NCBI RefSeq assembly: GCF_023062595.1
Contig: NZ_JALLAN010000005.1
Location: 124,001 to 188,000, forward strand
From: Arthrobacter rhizosphaerae
GTDB lineage: Bacteria > Actinomycetota > Actinomycetes > Actinomycetales > Micrococcaceae
Direction of reading: 5' to 3'
DNA length: 64,000 nt
This document shows positions 3,001 to 22,333 of the stretch, one piece after another; the first letter of the stretch is position 1, and each line of letters opens with the position of its first letter. A model generated the notes under the pieces. It searched no databases. It saw nothing but the letters and a program-made list of their open reading frames with translations, and had not been told where the DNA came from. Made by a program: the position numbers and the translations under genes.

Positions 3001-3005
3001 CTCAT
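1..3005 (-). CDS. FHA domain-containing FtsK/SpoIIIE-type ATPase (EssC/EccC-like), partial
   Basis: This reading frame is open from an ATG at 3005 to the window edge, so about 1000 residues are visible and the C-terminus is missing. The start is preceded by a GAGGGAG ribosome-binding sequence. A forkhead-associated domain lies at about residues 95-180 (RIGRS, SREHARL and SVNGT motifs), followed by two hydrophobic helices at about 225-262. An FtsK/SpoIIIE ATPase domain has a Walker A GTTGSGKS near residue 585 and a Walker B LVLVIDEF near 690. A second, degenerate ATPase-like domain begins near residue 905, where the P-loop reads GTTSAGTDD without the GK. This layout (FHA, membrane, tandem FtsK domains) is that of type VII secretion ATPases. 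No WXG100 gene is visible here, so a role in secretion is inferred. It diverges from glf. Confidence 0.85.
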   Translation of the reverse strand, partial: MRFECTLARSPDPGTRPGEDGDCVELTISAPPGCSGLELQDAVSRKYGTLALTAGGSPIAGMIVGVPPLVSGVVLVDGTISPPFSRNPERSSSGLMLAIHGGPGAGAVVPLGRGSVRIGRSGTEILIADAEMSREHARLEVSEANVTITDLGSVNGTTVDDKRVKSSPVSTDSVIRCGHSTLSIVFGGSLTEQRIDAAAAGSNVAEPLIVGRKAETGSRGTLILSAGLPIAIGVGLALITGMWMFLAFTAVSAVSVLVPLMSGRSQRRELQRAVHAAVKEDQDRRRRSAPSAADLVLQTRFSSPQVMPAPVGNDGIWLRLGLATQPANVRTDPIDPGFRPPLLEAVAVRLEPGPGTRRVQGPDEAVAGLVRSVIMQLAAFPLGSGTRVLILGAARELPLAARFLAQVSLMTGAAACLARLSDGPGQGFLHGVLIILEDIRCSGDIDTVVSVAVTNGWQVFQCSGAGSELSKDMDGPHIDLSGGMARLTSAAGSFDFVADRVSAVVFDNFCRQLASSQPRDNAARQRVPETCSLGDVLTLSDAELARRWDESRGKPGLPVSLGVGAFGPRLFDLQADGPHLLVAGTTGSGKSELLRSLTVSLALSFPPERVNFLFVDFKGGSGLGPLTGLPHCVGLLTDLSQHELHRFLVSMRAEIRRREELLARAETPDLASYRAATTGKMQDLPHLVLVIDEFRMLVEDAPEALRELMRIAAIGRSLGLHLIMATQRPQGAITADIRANVTTSIALRVQSELESADIINSGAAARIPVGHPGRAFLARGTDPPEEFQTAALTGTTAPVGCDLTVATTLDVLAAPGSVPGQRDTAKVSITPADAAAPLIRQACSLWTNLGGAPVRAPVMPALPEFLPFPGPDPGCLVELGWVDFPEQQIVTALKWDPSVDGHLGLVGTTSAGTDDAMHLILRQMLEIPREAHFYVLDSAGSLSEMSELPCVGAVAGLHELRRGVRVLERVAHEMSVRLSNQGDGANPPLILVVSGWGSWVS

Positions 3006-3115: not shown

Positions 3116-6450
<3,335 letters not shown>

Positions 6451-7332
6451 ATGGCGGTCACCATGGTGGATATCCCCGATGAACTGACGCGGCCTGGAAA
6501 GGGCCGGGGGTTGCTTGACGTTTATGATCACCGCTTCCTGCTAAAGCTGTTGGTGCGGAAGGAAATCAAGGTCCGTTACCGGGGATCGGTGCTGGGGCTG
6601 CTGTGGTCCTATGTCAAGCCGCTGATGCAGTTTTTGATCTATTTTGTGGCTTTGGGCATCTTCCTGAACCTTCAGCGCGGCACCCCGAATTACGCCATCT
6701 ACCTCTTCGCCGGAATCGTGCTGGTGAATTTCTTCACGGAGTCTCTGGGAAATGCGACCAGGTCCATTGTGGATAACCGGGATCTCATCCGGAAAATCTA
6801 TCTTCCGCGGGAGCTGTTCCCGGTTGCGACAGTTTGGGTGTCCGCCGCGCATTTCCTGCCCCAGCTTGTAGTGCTTGTTGGAGCCTGCCTTATAGGCGGC
6901 TGGTCACCATCCATTCTGCAGCTGACTGCCGCCCTCCTCGCTTTTATCCTCGTCGCTGTTTTGGCCACAGGGCTTGGACTCGTCTTCGGGGCAGCGAACG
7001 TCTACTTCCGGGACTCGGAAAACATTGTGGACATGATCCTCATGGTTGTCACCTGGGCATCCCCGGTGCTTTACGTATGGACCATGGTGGAGCGTGTTAT
7101 GGGTCCCTGGTACTGGATCTATCAGCTCAATCCCATGACGGTTGCAGTGGAAGCCTTCCACTATGCCTTCTGGTATCCGACATTGAAGGACGATCAGATG
7201 GCCACGGCCTCCATGCCCCCCGATCTGGTTACCATCTGGCTTCCCCTAGCGTTTCTGATTTCGTTCATTGTGCTGTTCATCGGACAGTTCATGTTCCGCC
7301 GCCTCGCCGTCCACTTTGCTCAGGAGCTTTGA
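6451..7332 (+). CDS. ABC-2 type polysaccharide export permease (Wzm-like)
   Basis: This 293-residue protein has the N-terminal amphipathic segment and about six membrane helices of the Wzm/RfbD/TagG permease family, with the family-typical block LVRKEIKVRYRGSVLGLLWS near the N-terminus. It should form the membrane channel that exports a completed undecaprenyl-linked glycan. The ATG directly abuts the stop of the upstream transferase; a second ATG at 6463 is possible. The ATPase partner starts one base after the stop. The context (galactofuranan synthesis) suggests the same polymer is exported. Confidence 0.92.
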   Translation: MAVTMVDIPDELTRPGKGRGLLDVYDHRFLLKLLVRKEIKVRYRGSVLGLLWSYVKPLMQFLIYFVALGIFLNLQRGTPNYAIYLFAGIVLVNFFTESLGNATRSIVDNRDLIRKIYLPRELFPVATVWVSAAHFLPQLVVLVGACLIGGWSPSILQLTAALLAFILVAVLATGLGLVFGAANVYFRDSENIVDMILMVVTWASPVLYVWTMVERVMGPWYWIYQLNPMTVAVEAFHYAFWYPTLKDDQMATASMPPDLVTIWLPLAFLISFIVLFIGQFMFRRLAVHFAQEL

Positions 7333-7333
7333 T

Positions 7334-8089
7334 ATGACTGCACTGGGCCACGTCGCCATCAGTTGTTCCAATCTGCGCAAACAGTTCGTACTGCGCCACA
7401 CGCGCTCCATGAAAGAGGCCGTGGTTTGGCTGATCAAGGGCAGGAAAGGGGACCTATCCAAGAAGTTCCTTGCGCTGGACGAAGTGTCCTTGGAAGTCCG
7501 GCAGGGCGAGACGGTTGCCCTCCTTGGACTGAACGGATCAGGAAAGTCAACGCTGCTCAAGCTGATTTCAGGTGTTCTTCAACCGGACGGCGGCTCCGTG
7601 CTGACGCGCGGTCGCGTGGCCGGCCTCATCGAGGTGGGCGCCGGATTCCATCATGACCTCAGCGGCCGGGATAATGTGTACCTCAACGGTGCCATTCTCG
7701 GCATGACCGAGAAGCAGATTGACGAAATGTTCGATTCCATCGTTGAGTTCTCAGAGATCGGGGAATTCATCGATACGGAGGTCAAGTTCTATTCCTCGGG
7801 TATGTACTTGCGCCTGGCCTTTTCCATCGCCGTGCACACCGATCCGGAAGTGTTTCTCATCGATGAAATTCTGGCCGTCGGAGACGAACCGTTCCAAAGA
7901 AAGTGCATCGCAAAAATCAAGGAGCTCGCCGAGAAGGGCAAAACGCTCTTTGTCGTGAGCCACGACCTTGATCTTGTTTCGACCGTCTGCGAACGCGGTG
8001 TGCTTCTGGAGCATGGCAAGATCATCCTGGACGGTGAAGTGCACGACGTCGTAGCGGAGCTCAGGAGCCGTTCGGCTGAGCCTCACTGA
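7334..8089 (+). CDS. ABC polysaccharide exporter ATP-binding subunit (Wzt-like)
   Basis: This 251-residue ATPase energizes export through the upstream permease. Walker A GLNGSGKS is near residue 65, the signature region YSSGMYLRLAF near 153, and Walker B FLIDEILAVGD near 174. It lacks the C-terminal carbohydrate-binding domain found in some Wzt proteins, so it resembles the short TagH/RfbE-like form. I chose the ATG at 7334 because AGGAG sits at 7322-7326; a longer open frame starts at 7268 inside the permease gene but has no such site. Confidence 0.94.
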   Translation: MTALGHVAISCSNLRKQFVLRHTRSMKEAVVWLIKGRKGDLSKKFLALDEVSLEVRQGETVALLGLNGSGKSTLLKLISGVLQPDGGSVLTRGRVAGLIEVGAGFHHDLSGRDNVYLNGAILGMTEKQIDEMFDSIVEFSEIGEFIDTEVKFYSSGMYLRLAFSIAVHTDPEVFLIDEILAVGDEPFQRKCIAKIKELAEKGKTLFVVSHDLDLVSTVCERGVLLEHGKIILDGEVHDVVAELRSRSAEPH

Positions 8090-8136
8090 TCCCCAGTTTG
8101 GGAACTGACCGACACACCCGACCAAAAGGAGTTACG

Positions 8137-11100
8137 TTGCTGGGAGGGCTGCTCAGAGCACTCGGCAAGCGGAAAGCTATCGTGTGGCTGTGCGGAGCAG
8201 CGGCCATTTTGGTCGCCGTCGCCTTGATTGCCGGCATGCTGGTGGACGTCAAATCCCTGCACGTCGTTTCCCTAAGGACCAACGGCTCTGCCTTGCCGCT
8301 TGGCATCCCGATGAAGGACGCTGCCCTGAGCTGGCAAAGTGAAGCGTCCTCCCGGAACACTGTCCAATCGGCTTATGAGGTGCGGGTTGCAACCACCGAA
8401 GATCGTCTGGAAAGCGCTGACCAGTGGAAGTCCGGCCGAATCGAATCTTCAGAACAGGTCAACATCGCATACGCCGGACCCGAGTTGGCATCGCAGCACC
8501 GCTACTACTGGCAGGTGCGGATCTGGGACTCCGCCGGCCGCCAGAGCGGTTGGAGCGAAGCTGCCTGGTTTGAAACGGCATTGCCGGCCGACGGCTGGAA
8601 TGGGCAGTGGATTGGGGGTGCGGACCCAGGCGCGGACCTGTCCCAATGGCGGGATTACCGGGTCAGCGTTGACTTCAGACTGGACGATATTGCCATGGGG
8701 TTGTACCTGCGCTCAAAGGATCTGAACAACGGATACATGTGGCAGCTTTCGGTAGCCGACGGAACTCCCAAGCTTCGTGCCCATATCAAGAAATACAGTT
8801 CCTACTCAGTTCTGCGGGAGAAGGACATCTCACAATTCGTGACGAGCGAATCGCTTCGCTTGTCCTTTCACAATTTAACAGTTGAAGCAAAAGGCAGTTC
8901 GTTTGTCACGAAGCTTGACGGTACTGAAATTGACCGTCTTGAGGATGCTTCCTACGGCGAGGGATACGTCGGGTTTCGGCAGGCCACGCTGCATCAGGGA
9001 CCGGAGACTGCGTCCATCCGCAACATCGTGGTCACGTCCGACAACGGGAATACTTTGTTGGAATCGGACTTCAATTCGGGCCCTGCCCCCTTCACTGAAG
9101 CAACTACGGAAGGCGGTCTGCTCAAACTCGCGGCACCGCTGGACGTCCTGCATGATCCCCGGCCGCCCCTGCCACTGCTCCGGAAAGAGTTCAACGCCGG
9201 CCAACGGGTGGTGTCCGCCAGATTGTATGCCACGGCACGTGGCCTTTACGAGGTCAGCATCAACGGACAGGTAGTGGGGGACCGCAGGCTGGCGCCTGGC
9301 TGGACGGACTATTCCAAACGGATTCACTATCAGACCTATGACGTCACAGGCCTGGTCAAAGAAGGCGGCAATGTCCTGTCCGCAATGTTGGGTGATGGGT
9401 GGTACAGCGGGAACGTTGGCGGATTCGGATCGATGCTTTACGGTTCGAGGCCCTCTTTCCTGGGCCAACTCCGAATTGATTTCGCTGATGGGACGCATCA
9501 GACTCTTTCCACAGATTCCACCTGGCAGATGCTTCCCGGACCATTGGTTCAGGCTGATCTGATCATGGGCGAGACCTTTGACGAACGCAGAATGCCCCAA
9601 GGCTGGCAAGACGTGGGCTTCAACAACCCCACGGTCCGAGCAGCAGAAATCGTGGCCTCACCAGCAGGCGCAGCACTGGAACCCCAGCCCGACGCACCGG
9701 TACAGAATGTCCAGGAACTGCAGCCCATCGGACGCACGGAGCCGGCACCGGGTCAGTGGATTTATGACATGGGGCAGAACATGGTGGGTGTGCTTACCAC
9801 CAAGCTGCGTGGCAAGCCCGGTCAGACAATCCGGATTCGCTATGGTGAAATGCTGAACAAGGACGGGACGCTGTACACAGCAAATCTCCGCAGCGCGAAG
9901 GCCACGGACCGATACACTTTCGGGCCGGACGGCGAGGTGGATTTCACCCCGAAGTTCACCTTTCATGGGTTCAGATATGCCGAGATCACCGGGACTGATG
10001 AGCCGCCGTCGGCAGATCAGGTTTCCGGCCAGGTGTGGAGCAGCATTCCGTCAGACACGGGTTCGCTTTCAACTTCCAGCGGGATGCTGAACCAACTCCA
10101 GAGCAATATCACCTGGAGCCAGCGCGGGAACTTCCTGTCGATTCCCATGGACACACCAGCAAGGGACGAGAGGCTTGGCTGGACTGGGGACATTGGGGTA
10201 TTTGCCCCCACGGCGACATACAACACCAATGCGCTGAACTTCCTCAGCAAGTGGCTGGGCGACCTTCGTGATGCTCAACTGCCCGGTGGAGACTTTCCTG
10301 GCACAGCACCTAGCCTCTGTGGCTGCTTCGCAGGAGGTGCCGGATGGTCCGACGCCGCTGTGACAGTTCCCTATTCCCTCTGGCAAACCTACGGGAATCT
10401 GAACGTCATCCGCGACAACTACGCGATGATGAAGAAGTTCATGGAGTACCGGCTGAATTCCGTCAATCCATCAGGGGCAGTTGTACACGGTCCGTACGGG
10501 GACTGGCTTAATCTGGACGATCCGACCGACGCGGGATTGATTGGCACGGCTTATTTCGCCTACACTGCGAGGTTGCTGGGGGAGATGGCGGAGGCAATCG
10601 GTGAGACGCAGGATAGTCTTTCGTTTGCTTCTGAGGCCGAGAAGGCCAAGAGCAACTTCGTGCGTCTGTATGTCAAGGGCGACGGCTCCCTGGTCCACGA
10701 GAGCCAGGGCGCATATGCCATCGCTATCGGGATGGACCTGATGCCGGAAGAACTTCTGGCGCCAGCAGGCAGTCGCCTGGTATCCCTGGTGAAGCTGCGT
10801 GACGATCACCTCTCCACCGGATTCCTGGGAACGCCGTGGCTGCTGGAGGCACTGAGCAGGTCCGGACACCAGGACATTGCCTATAGAGTCCTTAACCAGA
10901 CCACCTATCCCTCGTGGGGATATGAAGTCGAACAGGGTGCCACGACCATGTGGGAGCGTTGGGATGGGGTGAAACCCAACGGTGACTTGGGCGATCCCCG
11001 CTTGAACTCCTATAACCACTACGCATACGGCGCCGTTGGGGCCTGGATGTACCAAAATATCGCTGGCATATCCCCATCCTCCCCTGGGTACAAACGTTTT

Positions 11101-11394
11101 GTTATAGCGCCAAAAGTTGGAGGCGGGCTTAGCCAGGCATCGGCTCATTTTGACTCTGTTTACGGACGGATTGAGTCGAGCTGGCGTCTGGCGGGGGATG
11201 TGCTGGATATGTCTGTCTCTGTACCGGCGAATACCACGGCCACGGTACATCTGCCTGCCGATAGGGCAGCGGAAGTTACCGAAGGCGGATCCGAGCTGCC
11301 AGACACGGACGTAAAGGTGCTTTCCGAAGTGGGTGCCGAGGTCATAGTGGAGCTTGGATCCGGGCACTACGAGTTCAAGATCGTAAGCCAGTGA
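8137..11394 (+). CDS. Membrane-anchored GH78 alpha-L-rhamnosidase
   Basis: This 1085-residue protein begins with a hydrophobic helix (about residues 14-34) that should act as an uncleaved signal anchor and place the enzyme outside the cell. It has a fibronectin-like N-terminal domain and then a concanavalin/LamG-like insert at about residues 168-325. The GH78 beta-sandwich and (alpha/alpha)6 barrel follow. The barrel carries the family motif DERLGWTGD near residue 677, with the catalytic acid region, and TTMWERWDG near 937. The TTG at 8137 is preceded by AAAAGGAG. The family removes terminal alpha-L-rhamnose from glycans. Its place 47 bases after the exporter ATPase, in the same direction, suggests it trims or remodels the exported polymer; that is an inference. 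Confidence 0.9.
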   Translation: MLGGLLRALGKRKAIVWLCGAAAILVAVALIAGMLVDVKSLHVVSLRTNGSALPLGIPMKDAALSWQSEASSRNTVQSAYEVRVATTEDRLESADQWKSGRIESSEQVNIAYAGPELASQHRYYWQVRIWDSAGRQSGWSEAAWFETALPADGWNGQWIGGADPGADLSQWRDYRVSVDFRLDDIAMGLYLRSKDLNNGYMWQLSVADGTPKLRAHIKKYSSYSVLREKDISQFVTSESLRLSFHNLTVEAKGSSFVTKLDGTEIDRLEDASYGEGYVGFRQATLHQGPETASIRNIVVTSDNGNTLLESDFNSGPAPFTEATTEGGLLKLAAPLDVLHDPRPPLPLLRKEFNAGQRVVSARLYATARGLYEVSINGQVVGDRRLAPGWTDYSKRIHYQTYDVTGLVKEGGNVLSAMLGDGWYSGNVGGFGSMLYGSRPSFLGQLRIDFADGTHQTLSTDSTWQMLPGPLVQADLIMGETFDERRMPQGWQDVGFNNPTVRAAEIVASPAGAALEPQPDAPVQNVQELQPIGRTEPAPGQWIYDMGQNMVGVLTTKLRGKPGQTIRIRYGEMLNKDGTLYTANLRSAKATDRYTFGPDGEVDFTPKFTFHGFRYAEITGTDEPPSADQVSGQVWSSIPSDTGSLSTSSGMLNQLQSNITWSQRGNFLSIPMDTPARDERLGWTGDIGVFAPTATYNTNALNFLSKWLGDLRDAQLPGGDFPGTAPSLCGCFAGGAGWSDAAVTVPYSLWQTYGNLNVIRDNYAMMKKFMEYRLNSVNPSGAVVHGPYGDWLNLDDPTDAGLIGTAYFAYTARLLGEMAEAIGETQDSLSFASEAEKAKSNFVRLYVKGDGSLVHESQGAYAIAIGMDLMPEELLAPAGSRLVSLVKLRDDHLSTGFLGTPWLLEALSRSGHQDIAYRVLNQTTYPSWGYEVEQGATTMWERWDGVKPNGDLGDPRLNSYNHYAYGAVGAWMYQNIAGISPSSPGYKRFVIAPKVGGGLSQASAHFDSVYGRIESSWRLAGDVLDMSVSVPANTTATVHLPADRAAEVTEGGSELPDTDVKVLSEVGAEVIVELGSGHYEFKIVSQ

Positions 11395-11444: not shown

Positions 11445-12068
11445 TCAGATATCGGCTTTCCGGGCGAGGGATTCGACGGCGGCCTTGCCTGAGGTTCTGT
11501 CCCAATCAGGGGCAGAGGCAGGGACGGCAATAAGAAAGCGGAACACCTTGTTTCCGGACACGACTGCCAGGACATACTCGTTGGTGCCGCTGAGGCTGTT
11601 CATCGCGAATTTGGCCCGATCACCGAGACCAGTCACGTCTTCCGGCTCCATCATCAATTCGAAGTGGTAGCTGCCCGCCAGCAACTCAGCCGACGGGTAT
11701 GTGGAAACTTCAGCGACAACGGCGTTGGTCGTGTTGCCGCTCTGATCAAGGGGGTAGATGCAAGATTCCTTTGTGACTCCGGCTGAATCCTGAACGCCAG
11801 AGGGCTGTCCTGGCTGCAGCGTGGAGGCACGGGCGCCCAGCGCCTCTCCTATTTCCGGCGGCCCGATGACCTCGCAGGCGGTCACTTTTGAACTGGGCAC
11901 CACGGTTCGACCGTCACGCGCGACATCCGGAGGCTTCGTAGAGGCCGAGGATGAGGGTGTCTGGGGAATTTGGGTCGGGTCGGTGCAGGAAGTCAGGCAT
12001 ATCAGAGCCGCCAGTAGGGCGGGGGGCGTTGCATGCATCCAGCCATGCGTTGGCCTACCGAAAGACAT
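11445..12068 (-). CDS. DUF3558-like lipoprotein
   Basis: This protein of about 207 residues has a short N-terminal hydrophobic stretch ending in the lipobox LTSC (Cys near residue 28), then a Ser/Thr/Pro-rich linker. The compact domain has paired cysteines (ACEVIG and ESCIYP), which resembles the actinobacterial DUF3558 family of lipoproteins. No catalytic function is known to me. The ATG at 12068 has GGGAG nine bases upstream and overlaps the end of the L,D-transpeptidase gene by 14 bases, so the two are probably co-translated. A start at 12038 would still keep the lipobox. Confidence 0.65.
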   Translation of the reverse strand: MSFGRPTHGWMHATPPALLAALICLTSCTDPTQIPQTPSSSASTKPPDVARDGRTVVPSSKVTACEVIGPPEIGEALGARASTLQPGQPSGVQDSAGVTKESCIYPLDQSGNTTNAVVAEVSTYPSAELLAGSYHFELMMEPEDVTGLGDRAKFAMNSLSGTNEYVLAVVSGNKVFRFLIAVPASAPDWDRTSGKAAVESLARKADI

Positions 12069-14025
12069 CTGCGACAACTCCCATAACGATACGGTCACCT
12101 GGAACGGAGCGTGTCATGAAACGAACGACGTCACCCTCATTCATGGCGATGCAGCCCCAGCTCGGTGCCCGGTTGGCATGGAGAAAAATGGCAAAACCAG
12201 CGTCCATCACGATTGCGGAATCCGGCGGCCGGTTGTAATTAATGACCACGCCCTGCCGGTAGTCGTGGGATGGCCTTGTTGCGTAATACCACATGTTCTC
12301 ATCCGGGAAAATGTCCGCGCTCGACTCAAAGTACTTGTTGTAATTAGCGTTCAGTCGACCGCCCCACCGTGAGAACTGATTGAGCGTCTGATAATTGAGC
12401 GCTGTTCCAGGATTGCCCAAGCCGAAGGCATCTGTCACGGTATACGAACCGGTTGGAGAATACTTGTTAATCGTCGGGCCGGAGGGGACGCCGGGGCGGG
12501 CGAAGCCGGACTCACCTGCCTGGGCCCACGTGGACCATTCGTAAACATAGCGGCCGCCTGAGTTAACACACGTAACGGACGTTACTGGGCTAACAGCATA
12601 ACCCTCTGCAATCGCGAAGGTGACGCGCTGGGCCCCGCCCGTTCCATAGTTCACCGATCCGCGGTTGATGGCTTCGCAGTAGCCGCTGGGCGAGATGTAG
12701 ATCTTTGCTCCCGCAGTGGGACTCCAGCCCATTGAGCCATTTTCGAACCACTGCTGGCAGCCGGTTGCCCAGCACTTCTCTGTCTCGGTGGGATAACCCA
12801 ACGAGCCAGCGGGGCCGCCACGGGCAAGCCAGGTCCCTCCGATCGCCCCCCAGATGGGGTGGGAGCCGGCGGCGGGTGACCAGAACAGTTTTCCGCCTTG
12901 GAAGGACTGGGTGCAGCCCCCGTTGCGGAGTCCGCAGGTTTCGGCGCCGGTGGGGTAGCGCAGTCCGCCTGCCTGGGCGCCGTGGTTGAGGTATGCGACC
13001 CGGTTGGCGCCCCAGACAGGGACGGATCCTGTGGCGGGTGACCAGTAGAGCTGGCCGCCTTGGAAGCTCTGGGTGCAGCCGCCGTCGCGGAGGGCGCAGG
13101 TTTCGGCGCCGGTGGGGTAGCGCAGTCCGCCTGCCTGGGCGCCGTGGTTGAGGTATGCGACCCGGTTGGCGCCCCAGACAGGGACGGATCCTGTGGCGGG
13201 TGACCAGAAGAGCTGGCCGCCTTGGAACGTCTGGGTGCAGCCGCCGTCGCGGAGGCCGCAGGTTTCGGCGCCGGTGGGGTAGCGCAGTCCGCCTGCCTGG
13301 GCGCCGTGGTTGAGGTATGCGACCCGGTTGGCGCCCCAGACAGGGACGGATCCCGTGGCGGGTGACCAGAAGAGCTGGCCGCCTTGGAACGTCTGGGTGC
13401 AGCCGCCGTCGCGGAGGCCGCAGGTTTCGGCGCCGGTGGGGTAGCGCAGTCCGCCTGCCTGGGCGCCGTGGCTCAGGTACGCGACCCGGTTGGCACCCCA
13501 GACAGGATTGGCGCCCACAGCTGAGACCCAATAGATGTCGCCCTTTTGGAACGTCCGGAGGCAGCCGTCGTCGGCCAAGCCACACTGGATTTCGGCCGTT
13601 GCGGGGCCCAGGGTTCCTGCCGCTCCACCGAGCGAGGACCACAATGACTCAATGCTGGATTCCGAGCCTGGTGGCGGCGCCACGTCCGCAGCCTGTGTTG
13701 TCAGTGGTTCCCCGGCGTCCGATGTTGTCTTTTCGGGTGCGGCAGTAGGCGTGACGACCGGCGCTGCGAAGGTACCCGGGACAGCTGTCGGATCAGCCGA
13801 AAGCATTGGCGCTGGAGTCTTCGTCACGGGCTCAGTCGCCGTCGGGTCGGCCGATGGTGTCGCTGAAGGCGCAGCGGGCGTCGTGGCAGACAATTCGTCT
13901 TTTGACAGTTTCGGTTCAGGTGGTGCCTGGTTCGCTTCAGCGAAACCCATGGACGTGCACATCAGACCCAGCACAAACAACAAACTGAAGGCGGACCTTG
14001 CAGTAATGCTTCCTAAATTTGCCAA
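12055..14025 (-). CDS. LGFP-repeat protein with C-terminal YkuD-type L,D-transpeptidase domain
   Basis: This secreted protein of about 656 residues has a signal peptide, then a Pro/Thr/Ala-rich linker to about residue 125. Six LGFP-type repeats fill about residues 130-440, and a C-terminal domain has the L,D-transpeptidase active-site pattern: His in FLHANRAP and Cys in SWGC, nine residues apart (about 616 and 625). Such domains cross-link or modify peptidoglycan stem peptides. Four of the repeats read L-R-Y-P in place of L-G-F-P and are nearly identical in DNA. The TTG at 14025 follows GGGGGAG; another TTG at 14037 lacks a ribosome-binding site. The Cys and His make an active enzyme likely. 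Attachment of the repeats to wall glycan is inferred. Confidence 0.8.
   Translation of the reverse strand: MANLGSITARSAFSLLFVLGLMCTSMGFAEANQAPPEPKLSKDELSATTPAAPSATPSADPTATEPVTKTPAPMLSADPTAVPGTFAAPVVTPTAAPEKTTSDAGEPLTTQAADVAPPPGSESSIESLWSSLGGAAGTLGPATAEIQCGLADDGCLRTFQKGDIYWVSAVGANPVWGANRVAYLSHGAQAGGLRYPTGAETCGLRDGGCTQTFQGGQLFWSPATGSVPVWGANRVAYLNHGAQAGGLRYPTGAETCGLRDGGCTQTFQGGQLFWSPATGSVPVWGANRVAYLNHGAQAGGLRYPTGAETCALRDGGCTQSFQGGQLYWSPATGSVPVWGANRVAYLNHGAQAGGLRYPTGAETCGLRNGGCTQSFQGGKLFWSPAAGSHPIWGAIGGTWLARGGPAGSLGYPTETEKCWATGCQQWFENGSMGWSPTAGAKIYISPSGYCEAINRGSVNYGTGGAQRVTFAIAEGYAVSPVTSVTCVNSGGRYVYEWSTWAQAGESGFARPGVPSGPTINKYSPTGSYTVTDAFGLGNPGTALNYQTLNQFSRWGGRLNANYNKYFESSADIFPDENMWYYATRPSHDYRQGVVINYNRPPDSAIVMDAGFAIFLHANRAPSWGCIAMNEGDVVRFMTRSVPGDRIVMGVVADVFR
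12880..13510 (-). repeat. 162-bp tandem repeat array encoding LGFP units
   Basis: Near-identical 54-codon units recur at exactly 162-bp spacing; for example the same string begins at 12961, 13123, 13285 and 13447. Units differ at only a few bases, such as one GGL/GAL codon change and QLF/QLY. The array lies inside the L,D-transpeptidase gene and keeps the reading frame. Confidence 0.95.
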
Positions 14026-14190
14026 AATCTCCCCCAAAAGACTTACACGCGTAGGGCGCCTACTGCTGATTCAACTTCCGTCGGGAGCCGACGCAGCAAT
14101 TCATAGTGTAACGGCGGAAAGGGCTTTATGGACCCTCAATTTTCCGCGCCATGCATTCTCTTTGGCGAAATGTTTTCGGGCCATCACGTT

Positions 14191-16185
14191 CTATTCGTCG
14201 CAGGCCGAAACCCGGTAAAGAATTGCCTTGCCAACCCTGGCGACTTGCTCAATCCCCGGAGCCGCATCGAGGTTTTCCAAGCCGGGGTACTTGTGCGCGC
14301 CGCCGTGCACCTCATTGTCGCCGAAGTCGAGCACATGCCTGCTGTTTATTCTCCGCAGCGCTTCACACACGGCGGGATCTGAATCCACCCTGTTTAATCG
14401 CTTCATAACGATTTCAGCGTCTGGTCCGGGAGTGCCTTGGGTGTGGGGCAGGAGGGCAGGGCGACCTGTGTAGGCATAAACAAGGGAAGCCCCTGTCCAA
14501 GGGGAGCCTATGACCGTTTCACCCTCTGGAACAAACTGCGGGACCTGCAGGAGCAAGTCGTGTTCGTCGGTTGAAAGCAGCGGCGAATCGGTTCTGAGCT
14601 GAAAGTTCCGGGCGGCGTTCCCGACCTCAATACCTACGGTGCGGAACTGGGTTACTGCGACAGTGCCAGCCAGCAGAACGAGCGGGAGCAGCAGGCTCGC
14701 TCCATGTGTACGATCTAAGCGGAGCAGCCGGAGCCTCTTGTCGCGCAAAGCGTATGAACGCAGTTGTGACAGCAGCCAGAGCCCCCCGACTACTGCCAGA
14801 GGCAGGGTCACAATGGGCATGAGGGCAGCGATACGGTAGCTGTCGTTGTACCACCCGCCGGCAACGAATGAGCGGAATCGGCCAAAGGCCATTCCACTGA
14901 CAACGACATAAAGCCCAATGCCGATGACAAAGCTCGCCGTTGCCCGGCCAAACTTGCGATCCCGATAGGCTGAATAAAGCCCGACAATCACCAGAACCGA
15001 AAAGAAGATGGGCATGGGGCGGCCCATTGCTGCACCCGTGAGCGCCTCGCCGAATGCCCTTGCGAGGGTTTGATGTGCCGCCCACGTCGCGCTTGCCGGG
15101 TCGGGCCGCATGTACTTCCAAATGAAATAAATGGAGATGGCAGAACCAAGTGCGGCAAGGAGGGGATAAAGCATGCCCCGGAATCCGTCGGCGCGGTTGG
15201 CACTGAACCAGCGGAACCATCGAACCGCAAGCCACGGAAGACCAAACGCCAGGAGTGCGAGCAGCGAGGAGGGGTGGGCCATCATCAATCCGGTCAGGGC
15301 TACAGCGAAGAGCATCCACGGCCGTATCGCCTTTCCGTCCCGGCCTTGGTCATTTCGTATCGCCGTTATCAGAACGGCAAGGACAGCGGGAAGAGCAGCC
15401 GTCGCCAACAATGTGGGGTACAAGACACCGAAGTCGACCATGAGGTAGGGGAACTGACTGAAACCTGCCGCCCCTACCGCTGTAAGGGCACGGGCGGCGG
15501 TCCTCACGCCGACGATGCTGTCCACGAGGAATACCGCCCCGGCGGGCCACAGTACACAACAAATTACGAGGTTGGCAGCATTAATGGCCTCAGGAATCGC
15601 AGATCCGGCCAGCTGCGACACCAAAGCAACGTAATCGTGCCATGCAGCCGGATACATAGCCCACTGGTTTTGGGGATCCACGAGTTGGCCCACCGTCAGA
15701 GATGATCCATTTCCTGAGTCCACTATGTAACGAACCGAATTCAGGTGATAAATGTCATCGAAGGTCTGGGAGATACTTCCAGGGTTCCCGAAGATAGTGA
15801 TCATCCGCCAGAAAATCACCGCCCCCGCAAGAAGGAGGAAACCGAGGGTCCATAGCCCACGCGGATTTCTTGCCAGCAGCTTTAATGCAGCACGTCCACG
15901 TGCAGGCTCGGTGGCTACATTGCTGACACCCCGTTTGCGGTTCCGAAAAGCCAGCGACAAGAGGCAGGCCGCCGCACTGGCGACTAAGAGCGCCCACAGA
16001 GAGAACTCGAGCTGGAGGAGACCGGCAATGACAGCTGAACCGGAAATTAACGTTATGCCGACCGGGCCGGCCAAGGCCCACGCAGCCATGCCTCTGGCAC
16101 CAAGGAGCAATGAAACAAGCAGACCTGGAACTACTGCCAGCAGAAGGGCTGATGCAATCGTCGGGAGAAAGCCGATCCAGATCAT
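14191..16185 (-). CDS. DUF6541 family polytopic membrane protein, probable GT-C type
   Basis: This 664-residue protein has about a dozen membrane helices and a soluble C-terminal part, the layout of GT-C glycosyltransferases. After the first helices comes a conserved outer-loop block ISQTFDDIYHLNSVRY with acidic residues and a His, then SGNGS. The C-terminal domain has a GSPWTGASLVYAYTG segment and ends with a paired Cys region. It is a clear paralogue of the next gene upstream, sharing these blocks in the same order. I recognise the family only as DUF6541; transfer of a sugar from a polyprenyl-phosphate donor is an inference from topology and from the neighbouring polysaccharide genes. Confidence 0.75.
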   Translation of the reverse strand: MIWIGFLPTIASALLLAVVPGLLVSLLLGARGMAAWALAGPVGITLISGSAVIAGLLQLEFSLWALLVASAAACLLSLAFRNRKRGVSNVATEPARGRAALKLLARNPRGLWTLGFLLLAGAVIFWRMITIFGNPGSISQTFDDIYHLNSVRYIVDSGNGSSLTVGQLVDPQNQWAMYPAAWHDYVALVSQLAGSAIPEAINAANLVICCVLWPAGAVFLVDSIVGVRTAARALTAVGAAGFSQFPYLMVDFGVLYPTLLATAALPAVLAVLITAIRNDQGRDGKAIRPWMLFAVALTGLMMAHPSSLLALLAFGLPWLAVRWFRWFSANRADGFRGMLYPLLAALGSAISIYFIWKYMRPDPASATWAAHQTLARAFGEALTGAAMGRPMPIFFSVLVIVGLYSAYRDRKFGRATASFVIGIGLYVVVSGMAFGRFRSFVAGGWYNDSYRIAALMPIVTLPLAVVGGLWLLSQLRSYALRDKRLRLLRLDRTHGASLLLPLVLLAGTVAVTQFRTVGIEVGNAARNFQLRTDSPLLSTDEHDLLLQVPQFVPEGETVIGSPWTGASLVYAYTGRPALLPHTQGTPGPDAEIVMKRLNRVDSDPAVCEALRRINSRHVLDFGDNEVHGGAHKYPGLENLDAAPGIEQVARVGKAILYRVSACDE

Positions 16186-16213
16186 TTAATAAAGTTTCCT
16201 GCCTGAGGTCTGA

Positions 16214-18214
16214 TCACCAGCATGCTTTCACCTCGTAGAGGCTTGCTATTCCCACAGATGCCACCCTTGAGAACCCCTTAGAGGAGGGGATATATCGCAG
16301 GCCGTCATATTGCCCGTCCCGCGGATAGCCGAAATCAAATACCGGTTGATAGGAATAGATGACGTAGCGAACGTTCAGCCTGCGGACCGCCGGACAAACC
16401 TCCGGATTGACCGCCGCTTCGTTCAGGTGCCTCGCTATTAGCTCCCTGTCAGGATTCATGGGAACGAACATGTGCCCAAAAACCATCTTCGTGCCGGAAA
16501 CGTAGTAAGCAAGGGCACTTCCGTCCCAGGGATCGCCTGCGACAGCGGTGCCGGCGGGAACTATGCTTGGCAGCTTCTCGAACAGAGCCTGCTCGTCAGC
16601 GGACATCATGCGGGCATTCCTGTCGATATTGAAGTTGGCGCCTGCTGACCGGATACCTGCCGCAACGGTAAATGCCTGGGACCCGGCGAAAGTCACGCCA
16701 AGTAGTACAACAGCGCCCAGAACCATCAGCTGCTTGGAGCGAGTGTCGTTGGAACGCACGAATGTGATTTTTTCTGCTGCTGCATCCGTGAGGAAATCCA
16801 GCGCTTTGACTGCACCAATGGCTGCCAATGGAGCCCAAGTCAGCACGAGCGAGGCGGCCACCCTGTTGTAGTCGTCGTACCAGGAACCTGTCAGGAACGT
16901 GCGCAGCAGCCCCGTCGGAAAGCTGGCGGAGGCGAGGAAGAGCAAAGAGACGATGATGTGCGAGACAGCAAACCACCTCTGGCGTTTGTTGCGCAGCAGT
17001 GACAGGAAACCGATCGCGATCAGGATCGCGACGAAGAAGGAAGGAAAACTGTTCAGGGGAGCCGCCCACAGCAGCTCCCCGATTGCTTGCGCGGGGGTTT
17101 CAGTTGGCACGGTGAACTCGACCTCGGTCAATGGCACCGGCCGCAGGAGCGCCCATACCCCTGCAGCGCTGCAAACCAGCAGGATATTAGCGGGCAGCCT
17201 TGCCTGCAGAATCGAAAGAGGGAACCGCTGGGGTTTCCGGAGTGCTCGCGGAATGTCGAACAGCCTGTTCTCCGCCGAGAGGATGAGCGGCAGGGCGATT
17301 GCCAGAATCATCAGCATTCCGCTTGGCTGGGTGAGGAAGATGCCGGGAACGCAGCAGAGCAGGAGCCACACAGCCAGGGGTGTGCGTAGAGTGTCGCCGC
17401 TGTTGGAACGCTTGAAATAGATCATGATCAGTCCCACGGCGGGAAGCGTCGTGGCTATGGAGAGGAAACTGGGGTACAGGACCCCCCAATCGAGCATGCG
17501 GAAGGGAAAGATGCCGAAGCACGATGTGAGAATTCCACCAGCAATGAGGACCAACCGGCCATTGCCCGTAAGTTGCCTCAGGAAAAAGATGACGCCGCTT
17601 GGCCACACCAACCCGCCAATCACCAGGTTCACGGCATTCACGGATTCAGCTATGCCGGCTCCGCTGCTGCCTGCAACCATGGCGACGACAGAATGCCATG
17701 ATGCCGGGTAGATGGATGGAGCACCATTAAGACCTATTGACGGTGCGAACGCCGAACCGTTGCCGCTCTCAAGCATGTAGCGAACGGCATTCAGGTGGAA
17801 AACACCATCGGTTGTCTGGGAGATCATTGTGGGCGAGTGGAATACATTGATCAGTTGGATGCTAATGATGACGGCTGGTATGGCCGTAGCCAAGGCGATC
17901 CAGAGACCGTTCTTCCGCACGCCGGCTTTAGCCAGGGGCGGAATGCCCTTGGGGCGGAAGACCCGGCTCAGGCCGAAGGTGGCTGCTGCAACTGCCACCG
18001 CTACAAAGAGAAGAGACCACCACGCCCAAGGAATGCCTGCGTACGAGAGAGCGAGAGCACCAATGTCCACGATTGACAGGGTCAGGAGGGGCCCCAGCCC
18101 CCACGCCAGCGCTTTGGAACCACCTGCCATTCGGGCCGTGAGGTATCCCGGCCCAAACATCACGGCTATCGCAACAAGCGCGGGAAGTAAGACCGCCAGC
18201 CAGCTGGAATTCAT
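16214..18214 (-). CDS. DUF6541 family polytopic membrane protein, paralogue of the adjacent gene
   Basis: This 666-residue membrane protein shares length, topology and motifs with its downstream neighbour. These include ISQTTDGVFHLNAVRY, SGNGS, YPASWHS, GDPWDGSALAYYVSG and VCPAVRRLN, so the pair arose by tandem duplication. The two genes are separated by only 28 bases and read the same way, so they form one transcript. An Asp and His in the first large loop are kept in both copies, as expected for a catalytic site in a GT-C-like fold, but no biochemical role is known to me. Confidence 0.75.
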   Translation of the reverse strand: MNSSWLAVLLPALVAIAVMFGPGYLTARMAGGSKALAWGLGPLLTLSIVDIGALALSYAGIPWAWWSLLFVAVAVAAATFGLSRVFRPKGIPPLAKAGVRKNGLWIALATAIPAVIISIQLINVFHSPTMISQTTDGVFHLNAVRYMLESGNGSAFAPSIGLNGAPSIYPASWHSVVAMVAGSSGAGIAESVNAVNLVIGGLVWPSGVIFFLRQLTGNGRLVLIAGGILTSCFGIFPFRMLDWGVLYPSFLSIATTLPAVGLIMIYFKRSNSGDTLRTPLAVWLLLCCVPGIFLTQPSGMLMILAIALPLILSAENRLFDIPRALRKPQRFPLSILQARLPANILLVCSAAGVWALLRPVPLTEVEFTVPTETPAQAIGELLWAAPLNSFPSFFVAILIAIGFLSLLRNKRQRWFAVSHIIVSLLFLASASFPTGLLRTFLTGSWYDDYNRVAASLVLTWAPLAAIGAVKALDFLTDAAAEKITFVRSNDTRSKQLMVLGAVVLLGVTFAGSQAFTVAAGIRSAGANFNIDRNARMMSADEQALFEKLPSIVPAGTAVAGDPWDGSALAYYVSGTKMVFGHMFVPMNPDRELIARHLNEAAVNPEVCPAVRRLNVRYVIYSYQPVFDFGYPRDGQYDGLRYIPSSKGFSRVASVGIASLYEVKACW

Positions 18215-18285: not shown

Positions 18286-19158
18286 CTACCGGATGAGCGA
18301 AAGCAAGTATTCTCCATACCCGCTCTTTATCAAGGGTTTGGCCCGCACGGCGAGCTCTTCGTCCGTCAGGAAACCTTGCCGCCAGGCGATCTCTTCCGGT
18401 GCCCCGACCTTGAGTCCCTGACGCGACTCGATCGTCCGGACGAAATTAGAGGCGTCGTTCAAGTCGCTGACCGTCCCAGTGTCCAGCCATGCGGTCCCGC
18501 GCGGCAGAATTTCCACGCGGAGCCTGTCCTGCTCCATGTAGATCCGGTTCACGTCAGTAATTTCCAGTTCACCCCGGCTGGAGGGTTTCAGGGATTTCGC
18601 TATTTCAATAACGTCGTTGTCATAGAAATACAGGCCTGGCACGGCGAAGCTGCTCTTCGGAACGCTTGGCTTTTCCTCCAAGGAAAGCACTTTTCCGTCC
18701 GGACTGAATTCGACCACACCATAGGCGGACGCATCCCGTACCTGATAACCAAAAATCGCTCCGCCGTCGATGTCATGGAACCGTGAGAGCCGCTGGCCCA
18801 TTCCAGGGCCGTAGAAGATGTTGTCACCGAGCACCAAGGCCACGGAGTCATCCTGTATATGTTCGCTGCCGAGGATGAAGGCCTGGGCAAGGCCGTCCGG
18901 CGACGGCTGCACTGCGTAGCTGATGTTGACACCGAACTGGTCTCCGTCGCCGAGGACCCGGTGGAACGCCTCGGCATCATGGGGAGTGGTAATGACCAGG
19001 ATGTCCCTGATCCCTGCCAGCATCAACGTGGAGAGGGGGTAGTAGATCATCGGTTTGTCATACACCGGCACCAATTGTTTGCTGACGCCAAGGGTGATCG
19101 GGTGCAGCCGGGAGCCGGTGCCACCGGCCAGGATTATTCCACGCATGCCCTCTATCAT
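18286..19158 (-). CDS. rmlA: Glucose-1-phosphate thymidylyltransferase
   Basis: This enzyme makes dTDP-glucose from glucose 1-phosphate and dTTP, the first step to dTDP-L-rhamnose. The nucleotide-binding motif [13 protein letters not shown] is at the N-terminus, and the blocks [15 protein letters not shown] and LGDNIFYG are typical of RmlA. At about 290 residues it has normal length. The ATG at 19158 has GGGA about ten bases upstream; the family more often starts at the equivalent of the ATG at 19146. It diverges from rmlB, and with rmlB and the rmlCD fusion it completes the rhamnose donor pathway in this window. Confidence 0.95.
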
Positions 19159-19191
19159 CGTCTGCAATCCCGGCTACGCCAAACCAGTGGG

Positions 19192-19197
19192 TAGGCT
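19192..19197 (+). promoter_or_regulatory. -10 box of rmlB, probably a leaderless transcript
   Basis: TAGGCT ends six bases before the rmlB ATG, so transcription would begin at or next to the start codon. No ribosome-binding sequence lies in between, which fits a leaderless mRNA. Confidence 0.5.
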
Positions 19198-19200
19198 TAG

Positions 19201-20202
<1,002 letters not shown>

Positions 20203-20203
20203 G

Positions 20204-21619
20204 ATGACGTTGGAGTTTTCAAAACCACTCAAGGCAACCCCAACACCCATCCCCGGCGTTGTTGTTTATGACCTTCCCGTGCACGGCGACAACCGTGGCT
20301 GGTTCAAGGAGAACTGGCAGCGGGAAAAGATGCTGGCCCTGGGGTTACCCGATTTTTCGCCGGTCCAGAACAACATCTCCTTCAATGAGAAGACCGGAAC
20401 GACGCGCGGCATCCATGCGGAGCCCTGGGACAAGTTCATTTCCGTGGCGGCAGGACGCATATTCGGTGCATGGGTGGACTTGCGCGAAGGACCGAGCTTC
20501 GGCAAGGTCTTCTGCACGGAACTTGATCCCAGCCGCGCGATCTTTGTTCCACGGGGAGTTGGCAATTCATTCCAAACTCTCGAAGACAAGACTGCCTATA
20601 CCTATCTGGTGAACGATCATTGGAGCGAGGCGGCCCAGAGCCAGTACACGTTCCTCAATCTGGCTGATGCTACAGCCGATATTCCCTGGCCCATTCCCCT
20701 CGAGCGGGCTGAGCTGTCCGAAAAGGACAAGAACCATCCCTTCCTGGATGAGGTCAAGCCCATGGCTGGACAAAAGATCCTCGTCCTGGGGTCGGACGGA
20801 CAATTGGGGAAGGCGCTGCGGGAACTTTACGACGGCGACCCCCGGGTTGAGTTTGCAACGCGCAAGGACCTGGATATCTCCAATGAATCGGCGCTGAAGT
20901 CACGGAATTGGAAGGGCTACTCGACCATCATCAACGCAGCTGCCTACACGGCAGTTGATCTGGCGGAAACGCCGGCTGGCCGGGCCGCGGCCTGGCAAAC
21001 GAACGTCAGCAGCGTCGCCAGGCTGGCCGCCGTCGCGATTGAATACGGATTGACGCTTGTTCATATTTCTTCAGATTATGTTTTCGACGGTTCGAAGGAA
21101 GTGCACTCCGAGGACGAGGTTCCCAGTCCTCTGGGTGTTTATGGCCAGACCAAGGCAGCGGGCGACGCAGCAGCAGGCATGGTCCCGCGTCACTACATCA
21201 TCCGAACCAGCTGGGTCATCGGCGAGGGAAGCAATTTCGTGCGGACGATGGCCACCCTCGCAGAACGCGGTGTGGAACCGCGCGTTGTAAATGATCAGTT
21301 CGGCAGGCTCAGCTTCACGCAGGACATCGCCGCCGGCATCAGGCACCTTCTCGACACGGAGTCCGAATTCGGAACCTACAACCTCAGCAGTGATGGTCCA
21401 CCGCAGAGTTGGGCTGATATTGCCGGTGACGTCTTCGAGTTCTGCGGCCGAAGCCGGGACAGCATCACCGGAGTGAGCAGCGACGACTATCTCAAAGGCT
21501 CAAAAGCCGCTCCTCGCCCCCGCAACAGTACGCTGTCGCTGGACCGCATCCAGTCCACAGGCTTCTTCCCCGGGGAGGGTGCAAAGCGCCTGAGGGAGTA
21601 CCTGGCGGCCGACAGATAG
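20204..21619 (+). CDS. rmlCD: Bifunctional dTDP-4-dehydrorhamnose 3,5-epimerase/reductase (RmlC-RmlD fusion)
   Basis: One 471-residue chain joins two steps of rhamnose donor synthesis. Residues 1 to about 185 are a cupin like RmlC, with RGIH (the catalytic-base His position), DKF and the strand VDLREGPSFGK. Residues from about 190 to the end are RmlD, with the NADPH motif LGSDGQLG, SSDYVFDG and the YGQTK catalytic pair. In the cupin part the usual HYQ reads HAE, the AHGF block reads GNSF and the TDYY block reads NDHW, so the epimerase domain belongs to a variant subgroup. The ATG at 20204 is set by the stop of rmlB at 20202; an earlier in-frame opening lies inside rmlB. Confidence 0.9.
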   Translation: MTLEFSKPLKATPTPIPGVVVYDLPVHGDNRGWFKENWQREKMLALGLPDFSPVQNNISFNEKTGTTRGIHAEPWDKFISVAAGRIFGAWVDLREGPSFGKVFCTELDPSRAIFVPRGVGNSFQTLEDKTAYTYLVNDHWSEAAQSQYTFLNLADATADIPWPIPLERAELSEKDKNHPFLDEVKPMAGQKILVLGSDGQLGKALRELYDGDPRVEFATRKDLDISNESALKSRNWKGYSTIINAAAYTAVDLAETPAGRAAAWQTNVSSVARLAAVAIEYGLTLVHISSDYVFDGSKEVHSEDEVPSPLGVYGQTKAAGDAAAGMVPRHYIIRTSWVIGEGSNFVRTMATLAERGVEPRVVNDQFGRLSFTQDIAAGIRHLLDTESEFGTYNLSSDGPPQSWADIAGDVFEFCGRSRDSITGVSSDDYLKGSKAAPRPRNSTLSLDRIQSTGFFPGEGAKRLREYLAADR

Positions 21620-21667: not shown

Positions 21668-22333
21668 GTGAGTCGAACCTGGATACTTATACCAATGTAC
21701 AACGAGGCCACGGTGGTCGGATCCGTAATCGAGGGCCTTCTGCCGGTTTTCCCGAACGTCGTCTGCATCGATGACGGAAGCTCTGACGGCTCACCCGAGG
21801 TTGCGGCGGCGGCCGGGGCGACTGTCGTTCAGCACCCCATAAACCTGGGTCAGGGCGCCGCGCTTCAGACAGGTATCTCCTACGCACTCCAGGATCCGCA
21901 GATGGAGACTGTTGTAACGTTCGACGCGGATGGACAACACCGTGTCTCTGACGCCCAGCTGATGGTGGAACGGATCCAGAATGGTGAAGCGGACATTGTC
22001 CTGGGATCCCGGTTCCTCGATGACCGGACAAAGCTGACGCCTGCGAAACGCCTGGTCCTCAGGACAGCAGCTGCCCAGATGCGCATCTCCACCGGGATGG
22101 ACCTGTCCGATGCCCATAACGGCCTCCGGGCTTTCAACAGGCACGTGGCATCTCGAATAGATCTGACACAGAACCGGATGGCGCACGCTTCCGAATTCGT
22201 GCATCAGATCGCCAAGATGCAACCTCGTTACGTCGAGCATCCAGTCGAAATAATCTACACGGACTACTCCAAAGCCAAGGGGCAGTCGCTGCTGAACTCC
22301 GTAAACATACTGGCCGAACTGCTGCTGAAGTAA
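21668..22333 (+). CDS. Family 2 glycosyltransferase (polyprenyl-phosphate sugar synthase-like)
   Basis: This 221-residue GT-A enzyme has the nucleotide-binding start IPMYNEATVVGSVI, the acidic motif CIDDGSSDGS, the TFDADGQH metal site, and GSRFLDD, as in DPM1-like enzymes. It lacks C-terminal membrane helices, which are probably supplied by the DUF2304 protein that follows 12 bases later. Such pairs usually charge polyprenyl phosphate with a sugar for use by GT-C enzymes outside the membrane, such as the DUF6541 proteins upstream. The GTG at 21668 gives the expected N-terminus. Confidence 0.88.
   Translation: MSRTWILIPMYNEATVVGSVIEGLLPVFPNVVCIDDGSSDGSPEVAAAAGATVVQHPINLGQGAALQTGISYALQDPQMETVVTFDADGQHRVSDAQLMVERIQNGEADIVLGSRFLDDRTKLTPAKRLVLRTAAAQMRISTGMDLSDAHNGLRAFNRHVASRIDLTQNRMAHASEFVHQIAKMQPRYVEHPVEIIYTDYSKAKGQSLLNSVNILAELLLK

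Follow-up and report, generated by a model that had tools for sequence, protein, structure and literature searches.

Directly behind the exporter ATPase gene of a galactofuranan synthesis and export operon in Arthrobacter rhizosphaerae lies a gene for an alpha-L-rhamnosidase of glycoside hydrolase family 78 (GH78). The operon was analysed in a 64,000-nucleotide stretch of contig NZ_JALLAN010000005.1 (positions 124,001 to 188,000; hereafter "the window") from a 5.02 Mb genome in 48 contigs (labelled G000), and the gene, gh78, is the fifth feature of an arrangement that reads glf, GlfT2, wzm, wzt, gh78 on one strand (Table 1). Orthologs were found in two further genomes, one of a congener (G085) and one of a second genus of the family (G278), and they stand in the same place. 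The recurrence of this rare arrangement in two related bacteria suggests an enzyme that edits the surface sugars of the cell producing it.

Rarity and placement of orthologs

Orthologs were screened by using the N-terminal 340 residues of the window protein as query at E < 1e-60. Among 206 Arthrobacter genomes, two had an ortholog (the window's genome and G085), with the next congener match at E 6e-25 over residues 40-170. A full-length search of 150 congeners returned G085 at 68% identity, and among the matches listed all others reached at most 43% and started at residue 281 or later. Across the family, orthologs were found in 2 of 395 genomes (the window's and G278), and a smaller draw of 295 gave the same two; up to seven or five first-look candidates per genome were scored in these draws, and G085 was absent among their matches. 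The genus of G278 had an ortholog in 1 of its 23 genomes.

All three orthologs (G000, G085, and G278) lie directly behind wzt and on the same strand, at gaps of 47, 42, and 3 nt, respectively, and the enzymes are 1085-1088 aa long and end at the C domain. The contig of G278 ends about 250 nt past gh78. The original prediction named rarity in this position across relatives as counting against it, and by that measure the gene is rare. It is not randomly placed, however, and a tie to the operon beyond chance is supported. Given its presence in so few congeners, gh78 would be accessory and not part of the core pathway.

In the congener G069 (locus L112), the gene order matches that of the window, namely glf, GlfT2, wzm, wzt, a lipoprotein-like gene, LGFP, two DUF6541 genes, rmlA, and rmlB, without GH78. 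When the empty-site spacer of this locus was compared with both window spacers, no insertion scar was seen, only short matches (scores 14 and 16, chance level by eye), so insertion and loss are not distinguishable here.

Operon and gene call

The window Glf scored above the cut-off of the equivalog TIGR00031 for galactan synthesis, and the GlfT2-type domains were likewise over cut-off. Curated galactan-exporter equivalog names (NF050109 and NF050108) were rejected for Wzm and Wzt, both of which fell far under cut-off; the pair is regarded as a mycobacterial-type galactan exporter by context and was not filed as equivalog. The glf-GlfT2-Wzm-Wzt operon of the original prediction is supported.

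The start of gh78 was placed at TTG 8137 because of the good ribosome-binding site 5 nt ahead of it (AAAAGGAG), and a longer open reading frame (ORF) from TTG 8098 was dropped. The G085 ortholog likewise has a TTG start with AAGGAG ahead. No terminator-like or promoter-like site was found when the 47-nt spacer between wzt and gh78 was scanned, and we infer that gh78 is co-transcribed with the galactan operon. Guanine-cytosine content at third codon positions was 0.672 in gh78 vs 0.688-0.714 in the four operon genes, and a foreign base composition was rejected on these values. A plasmid origin was also rejected: all 207 records of the plasmid collection were below 60% identity (the best, a Streptomyces replicon, at 48.6% over 96% of the query). 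Between the window and G085 GH78 genes, the proportions of nonsynonymous and synonymous differences were 0.205 (pN) and 0.736 (pS, near saturation), respectively, which points to selection acting on the protein.

Catalytic residues and domains

Five Pfam rhamnosidase-domain models were over cut-off in the window protein. Together with a jelly-roll model of the insert (below) and the end of wzt at 8089, they confirm that a GH78 enzyme with a ConA/LamG-like insert is encoded 47 nt behind the exporter ATPase. The closest structure by both sequence and fold was SaRha78A of Streptomyces avermitilis (PDB 3w5m/3w5n; Foldseek E 2.8e-98, 38% identity). Its active site we take to comprise D630, R634, E636, W640, D643, W695, W747, E895, and H916, with Glu636 as general acid and Glu895 as general base. 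All nine positions are identical in the aligned window protein (D672, R676, E678, W682, D685, W737, W790, E940, and H961); eight are invariant in an alignment of 27 rows, and W682 is at least 90% conserved. GH78 enzymes are inverting and exo-acting.

Near the N-terminus of the window protein, a run of 23 residues is free of charged or strongly polar side chains (its Kyte-Doolittle value over 19 residues is 2.70). In the structure model a helix was placed at residues 17-33, where the predicted local distance difference test (pLDDT) was mostly below 50, and no clear signal-peptidase motif was seen after the run when judged by eye. Over 17 rows the window (2.70) and G085 (2.79) had the two highest Kyte-Doolittle values. 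Two observations speak against the run as a distinction of the operon form: G278, with a run of 21 residues, scored 2.18, within the 1.32-2.34 spanned by the other 14 rows, and the sister enzymes at loci L125 and L135 scored higher (2.34 and 2.28). Length of the run was therefore rejected as a clean mark of operon-linked GH78. The predicted signal anchor was retained in part, as an assignment from hydrophobicity and the by-eye lack of a cleavage motif: anchoring is likely for the window and G085 enzymes, and G278 is not set apart from secreted relatives. It is this last point that holds down our confidence in a working, membrane-anchored GH78 rhamnosidase, which we nevertheless consider probable.

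When modelled alone, the insert folded as a jelly roll (pLDDT 88.6). A profile of 15 inserts matched the CBM66 module of Bacillus subtilis levanase (PDB 4azz) at E 6.4e-5, with the next unrelated chain at 0.14, and fold comparison with 4azz gave Z 12.7 and a root mean square deviation of 2.5 over 124 residues at 22% identity. Beta-glucanase jelly rolls (Z up to 13.9 at 11-13% identity) and galectin-type chains (Z up to 12.5 at 5-10% identity) scored like CBM66, so the fold by itself does not decide the insert's kin or single CBM66 out; Pfam gave weak matches on the window insert, all under cut-off. The ConA/LamG-like insert is real, and by sequence profile it is nearest to CBM66. Streptomyces enzymes have an apparently different insert at the same place, presumably CBM67, to which identity was 8-11% in six Streptomyces rows and 8-16% across all twelve rows of that kind; the phmmer alignment to 3w5m covers both flanks of the insert and skips residues 165-346. 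The window enzyme differs from SaRha78A in its anchor-like N-terminus and apparently in its insert, a CBM66-like jelly roll.

The protein might have ceased to be a hydrolase and serve as a glycan-binding or transglycosylating wall protein, which would fit its CBM66-like module and the LGFP wall protein that holds the place behind wzt in 5 of 56 congener loci. Since the catalytic residues listed above are kept, under purifying selection, we consider such a loss of activity very unlikely.

Table 1 Features of the window
Feature	Position	Strand	Evidence and remarks
glf, UDP-galactopyranose mutase	3236..4465	+	TIGR00031 337.8 bits (cut-off 303.75); PF03275
GlfT2-type galactofuranosyltransferase, 662 aa	4462..6450	+	PF19320 and PF17994 over cut-off
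wzm, ABC-2 polysaccharide export permease	6451..7332	+	PF01061; NF050109 52 bits (cut-off 380)
wzt, ABC export ATPase	7334..8089	+	PF00005; NF050108 174.5 bits (cut-off 400); ATG 7334 read from sequence
Spacer wzt-gh78, 47 nt	8090..8136	+	Carries AAAAGGAG at 8124-8131
gh78, GH78 alpha-L-rhamnosidase, 1085 aa	8137..11394	+	Frame open from TTG to TGA
Hydrophobic, anchor-like run (residues 14-36)	8176..8244	+	Preceded by R7 and K11-R12-K13
Ig_Rha78A_N domain (residues 43-149)	8263..8583	+	PF25788 1.7e-32; renumbered from TTG 8137
ConA-like jelly-roll insert, CBM66-like (residues 155-348)	8599..9180	+	Profile, model, and fold comparison
Bac_rhamnosid_N domain	9205..9711	+	PF08531 1e-51
Bac_rhamnosid concanavalin-like domain	9745..10032	+	PF05592 7.9e-28
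Six-hairpin catalytic domain	10054..11061	+	PF17389 8e-109; 364.4 bits (cut-off 24.5)
Glu678 codon, putative general acid	10168..10170	+	Aligned with SaRha78A Glu636; invariant in 27 rows
Glu940 codon, putative general base	10954..10956	+	Aligned with SaRha78A Glu895; invariant in 27 rows
Bac_rhamnosid_C domain	11065..11286	+	PF17390 9.2e-26
Small ORF, lipoprotein-like by eye	11445..12035	-	First gene downstream of gh78; exact start unsure; no Pfam match
LGFP-repeat protein with YkuD domain	12055..14037	-	PF08310, PF03734; relatives 78% (L119) and 70% (L112)
rmlA (-), rmlB (+), rmlCD (+), dTDP-rhamnose supply	18286..21619	mixed

Origin of the enzyme and of the operons

The GH78 tree comprised 35 rows, including G278, seven congener GH78 genes, and 26 of 79 named loci. 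Relatives were listed as the best 80 of 500. The three operon-linked enzymes formed one clade (support 99/99), which joined four Microbacteriaceae enzymes in the next clade (97/98). In trees of glf, GlfT2, wzm, and wzt (57-62 rows; quick midpoint-rooted FastTree runs, from which path distances and monophyly were taken), the three gh78 operons do not group. Identities between G085 and the window were 44% for GlfT2, 88% for wzt, 89% for glf, and 68% for GH78. By these trees the operon-linked GH78 has one origin, and the rhamnosidase either moved into the same place in differing operon backgrounds or was retained there; the tree data fit a single gain with many losses as well as transfer.

Two features of the operon genes were noted alongside the trees. 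GlfT2 of G085 is 44-46% identical to that of the window vs 88-89% for the adjoining glf and wzt, and the polymerase gene seems to have been exchanged between operons. In the three GH78 operons, wzm is at least 76% identical to the window's wzm; an association of gh78 with one wzm type was set aside, there being too few cases to use.

One alternative takes the linkage as accidental, a single chance insertion behind wzt that then spread by homologous recombination over the conserved wzt without a functional tie. There are three cases only, wzt is 87-88% identical, which is enough for recombination, and the wzt of G085 is nearest to that of the window; yet the gene is intact and under selection across two genera, and an accident of this kind appears highly improbable.

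The sister group consists of GH78 enzymes of Compostimonas, Subtercola, and Lacisediminihabitans (loci L125, L135, L126, and L127), which have the same insert domain as the window enzyme. Their open frames are longer (1467-1915 aa), and the three with scanned tails carry NPCBM_assoc and other C-terminal modules. Two of the three scanned sister loci (L125 and L135) adjoin a ribose-type ATP-binding cassette (ABC) sugar importer (PF13407/PF02653/PF00005); at the third, L126, the one neighbour scanned was a DEAD-box helicase. Unlike the window, these loci gave no glf, GlfT2, or wzm match in the fetched flanks. When all 79 named loci were searched by tblastn (fetched flanks, some of them short), such matches were found only in L129, which belongs to the same genome as G085; the wzt query matched in 25 of the 79, at low identity except in L129, and these matches are probably other ABC ATPases. 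A catabolic-type rhamnosidase was apparently recruited to the operon.

The place behind wzt in congeners

A strong GlfT2 match was found in 140 of the 150 congeners; among the matches listed, the other ten gave only E > 1e-10, and at least two of these ten genomes are incomplete. From the 140, 60 loci were chosen for spread, with G085 included on purpose. In 56 of the 60 a wzt of the query type was present, and the next ORF behind it (the longest nearby frame, a crude rule) was GH78 in one (G085) and another gene in 55. DUF6541 was next in 28 (on the other strand in 10 of these), LGFP in 5, and a lipoprotein-like gene in 1 (G069), and in the remaining 21 the next ORF was unlike any window protein. 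Ten of the 21 are the AT3-SGNH acyltransferase of locus L067 or its relatives. Pfam was run on ten next ORFs and returned two AT3-SGNH acyltransferases, two Peripla_BP_2 proteins, one UDP-sugar dehydrogenase, two YfhO-type proteins, one DUF2142 membrane protein, one LGFP protein, and one protein without a family. The statement that such operons mostly hold nothing beyond genes for synthesis and export was consequently abandoned, as the place after wzt often holds other envelope genes.

A broader reading of this variety is offered only tentatively, and we think it more doubtful than not by a good way. The place behind wzt in Micrococcaceae galactan operons may be a swappable modification slot, whose occupants (acyltransferases, multi-span DUF6541 candidate sugar transferases, LGFP wall proteins, or, in three lineages, an anchored rhamnosidase of catabolic descent) alter the galactan after export. 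The rhamnosidase would then remove rhamnose epitopes in particular strains, perhaps allowing escape from phages or lectins that bind wall rhamnose.

Two side observations were made on these loci. Four of them (L065, L066, L123, and L124) have glf and GlfT2 but no query-type wzm or wzt in the fetched stretch, and their galactan may depend on another exporter. GlfT2 is split over at least two frames in G018 (L094), G114 (L093), G030, G052, G092, G095, and G131 (among the matches listed), which may reflect broken genes, sequencing errors, or a two-part enzyme.

Proposed function and alternatives

The enzyme would be an inverting, exo-acting alpha-L-rhamnosidase that is produced along with the galactofuranan polymerase and exporter and is probably held on the outside of the membrane by an N-terminal helix that is not cleaved off. 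Its most likely action would be to strip terminal alpha-L-rhamnose, present as side chains or caps, from the wall polymer during the Wzm-Wzt step or later. It would be a post-export editing enzyme, encoded at an accessory position whose content varies between operons. We lean, by a small margin over even odds, towards the product of this locus as its target polymer. Galactose and rhamnose occur in the walls of some Arthrobacter: both, with mannose, are given as wall sugars of A. pokkalii, and rhamnose is listed for three of seven tabled strains (PMC4786123).

Several observations weigh against this reading. The other four of the seven strains list no wall rhamnose in that table (PMC4786123). 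No rhamnosyltransferase was identified in the galactan operon, and galactan export does not need gh78, given its rarity. The closest relatives of the operon-linked enzymes look catabolic, and the CBM66-like insert is common to the sister enzymes (41-44% identity in the insert), so it is no special adaptation of the operon form; Streptomyces GH78 enzymes are about as short as the operon forms, which makes the short C-terminus special against the sister group only. Finally, the wzt of G085 is nearest to the window wzt (path distance 0.22, tied with L109), and the GlfT2 of G278 is nearest to the window GlfT2 (0.43, with L112 at 0.44), so gh78 could have been transferred jointly with pieces of the operon, which would account for some of the linkage.

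The same catabolic kinship underlies another explanation, in which the enzyme scavenges external rhamnosides of plants or microbes and is expressed by chance from the galactan operon promoter. The sugar importers beside L125 and L135 fit it, and the window genome has an L-rhamnose isomerase over cut-off (TIGR02635) and three further GH78 genes, all on contig C4. Those three genes also tell the other way, as the host already holds GH78 enzymes that, with the isomerase, would be there for scavenging. Beside the operon GH78 no sugar importer was seen in the stretches read: the window and G085 have wall genes downstream, and upstream in the window and G278 there is a divergent FtsK/FHA-type ATPase (by eye). 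A scavenging enzyme would also not be expected always directly behind wzt in differing operon backgrounds. On balance we find scavenging rather unlikely, if credible.

The enzyme could instead act on a GlcNAc-rhamnose linker or primer of the mycobacterial type, cutting at its rhamnose so that wall galactan or a stalled lipid-linked primer is released or recycled. Mycobacterial galactan is described as built on decaprenyl-PP-GlcNAc-Rha (PMC10951656), and the window genome has a GlfT1-like gene elsewhere (236 bits, cut-off 330). The linker rhamnose carries galactan at O-4 (PMC7831098), which should keep an exo-enzyme off until the galactan is gone. The GlfT1-like gene (locus L253, G000:C44:211000-229000, at 7039-10107) has a WecG/TagA-like gene on one side and a WecA/MraY-like gene on the other, a setting that points to a rhamnose-free primer of the GlcNAc-ManNAc type; possibly this trio provides a teichoic-type primer that feeds a mycobacterial-type galactan. 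For the rhamnosyltransferase WbbL (TIGR01556), nothing in the window genome was over cut-off, although no control genome passes it either. A target in the linker rhamnose is unlikely, and we give it little credence. The trio stands near genes that look by eye like those of ATP synthase.

Neighbouring genes

The nearby rmlA, rmlB, and rmlCD genes had been put forward as suppliers of dTDP-rhamnose. The genes are indeed present, but their proximity was rejected as support for the role of gh78: rmlA lies within a stretch of roughly 15-20 kb in 25 of the 60 congener loci, 24 of which are without GH78.

Downstream of gh78, the small ORF has 52% relatives in L112 and L119, and the LGFP/YkuD neighbour is common to G085 and G069. 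In addition to this first LGFP protein, whose YkuD domain is of the L,D-transpeptidase type, a second (26138-28762, minus strand) has a GH25 muramidase domain and nine LGFP repeats, and contig C2 holds a third gene of this kind. Since 9 of the 60 congener loci have LGFP genes close to the galactan operon, LGFP repeats may bind wall galactan here. Two adjacent multi-span membrane proteins of DUF6541 are encoded at 14191-18214 (minus strand). Matches to this family occur around the galactan operon in 55 of the 60 loci (directly after wzt in 28 of 56, as noted), making these proteins candidate sugar transferases for the wall glycan. A GT2 enzyme at 21668-22333 (plus strand) is close to PpgS (polyprenyl-phospho-GalNAc synthase; 283 bits, cut-off 370) and is a possible donor maker for outer galactan decoration. 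The large divergent ATPase gene upstream of glf, of FtsK/FHA type by eye, occupies 3-3005 (minus strand) and is open at the window edge; that of G278 is at L230:544-4683 (minus strand), so that these operon surroundings are common to two genera.

Comparison with known systems

The window resembles the mycobacterial galactan pathway in having Glf, a GlfT2-type transferase, and an ABC exporter in one operon, with a GlfT1-like gene elsewhere. It differs in that its exporter subunits and GlfT1 are under the curated cut-offs, and in that a WecG/TagA-like gene stands beside the GlfT1-like gene with no recognised WbbL.

Glycosidases encoded within Gram-negative exopolysaccharide operons, BcsZ among them, clear or tailor the polymer. 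Polymer-cleaving glycosidases are frequent in exopolysaccharide clusters, according to the abstract of PMC9075953. Like the window GH78, PslG, PelA, AlgL, and PgaB are polymer-cleaving enzymes encoded with a polymerase and exporter; those four belong to Gram-negative exopolysaccharide, whereas the window has a catabolic-type exo-rhamnosidase in a Gram-positive wall-galactan operon of few species. No report of a rhamnosidase in a galactan or Wzm-Wzt operon was found in the titles and abstract openings listed for openly licensed papers, which is not proof of absence.

If the proposed editing role is true, the principle of a glycosidase within an export operon would extend from Gram-negative exopolysaccharide to Gram-positive wall galactan, and gh78 would give a direct genetic way into the question of why Arthrobacter species differ in wall rhamnose. 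The place behind wzt would be one in which to look for wall-glycan tailoring enzymes.

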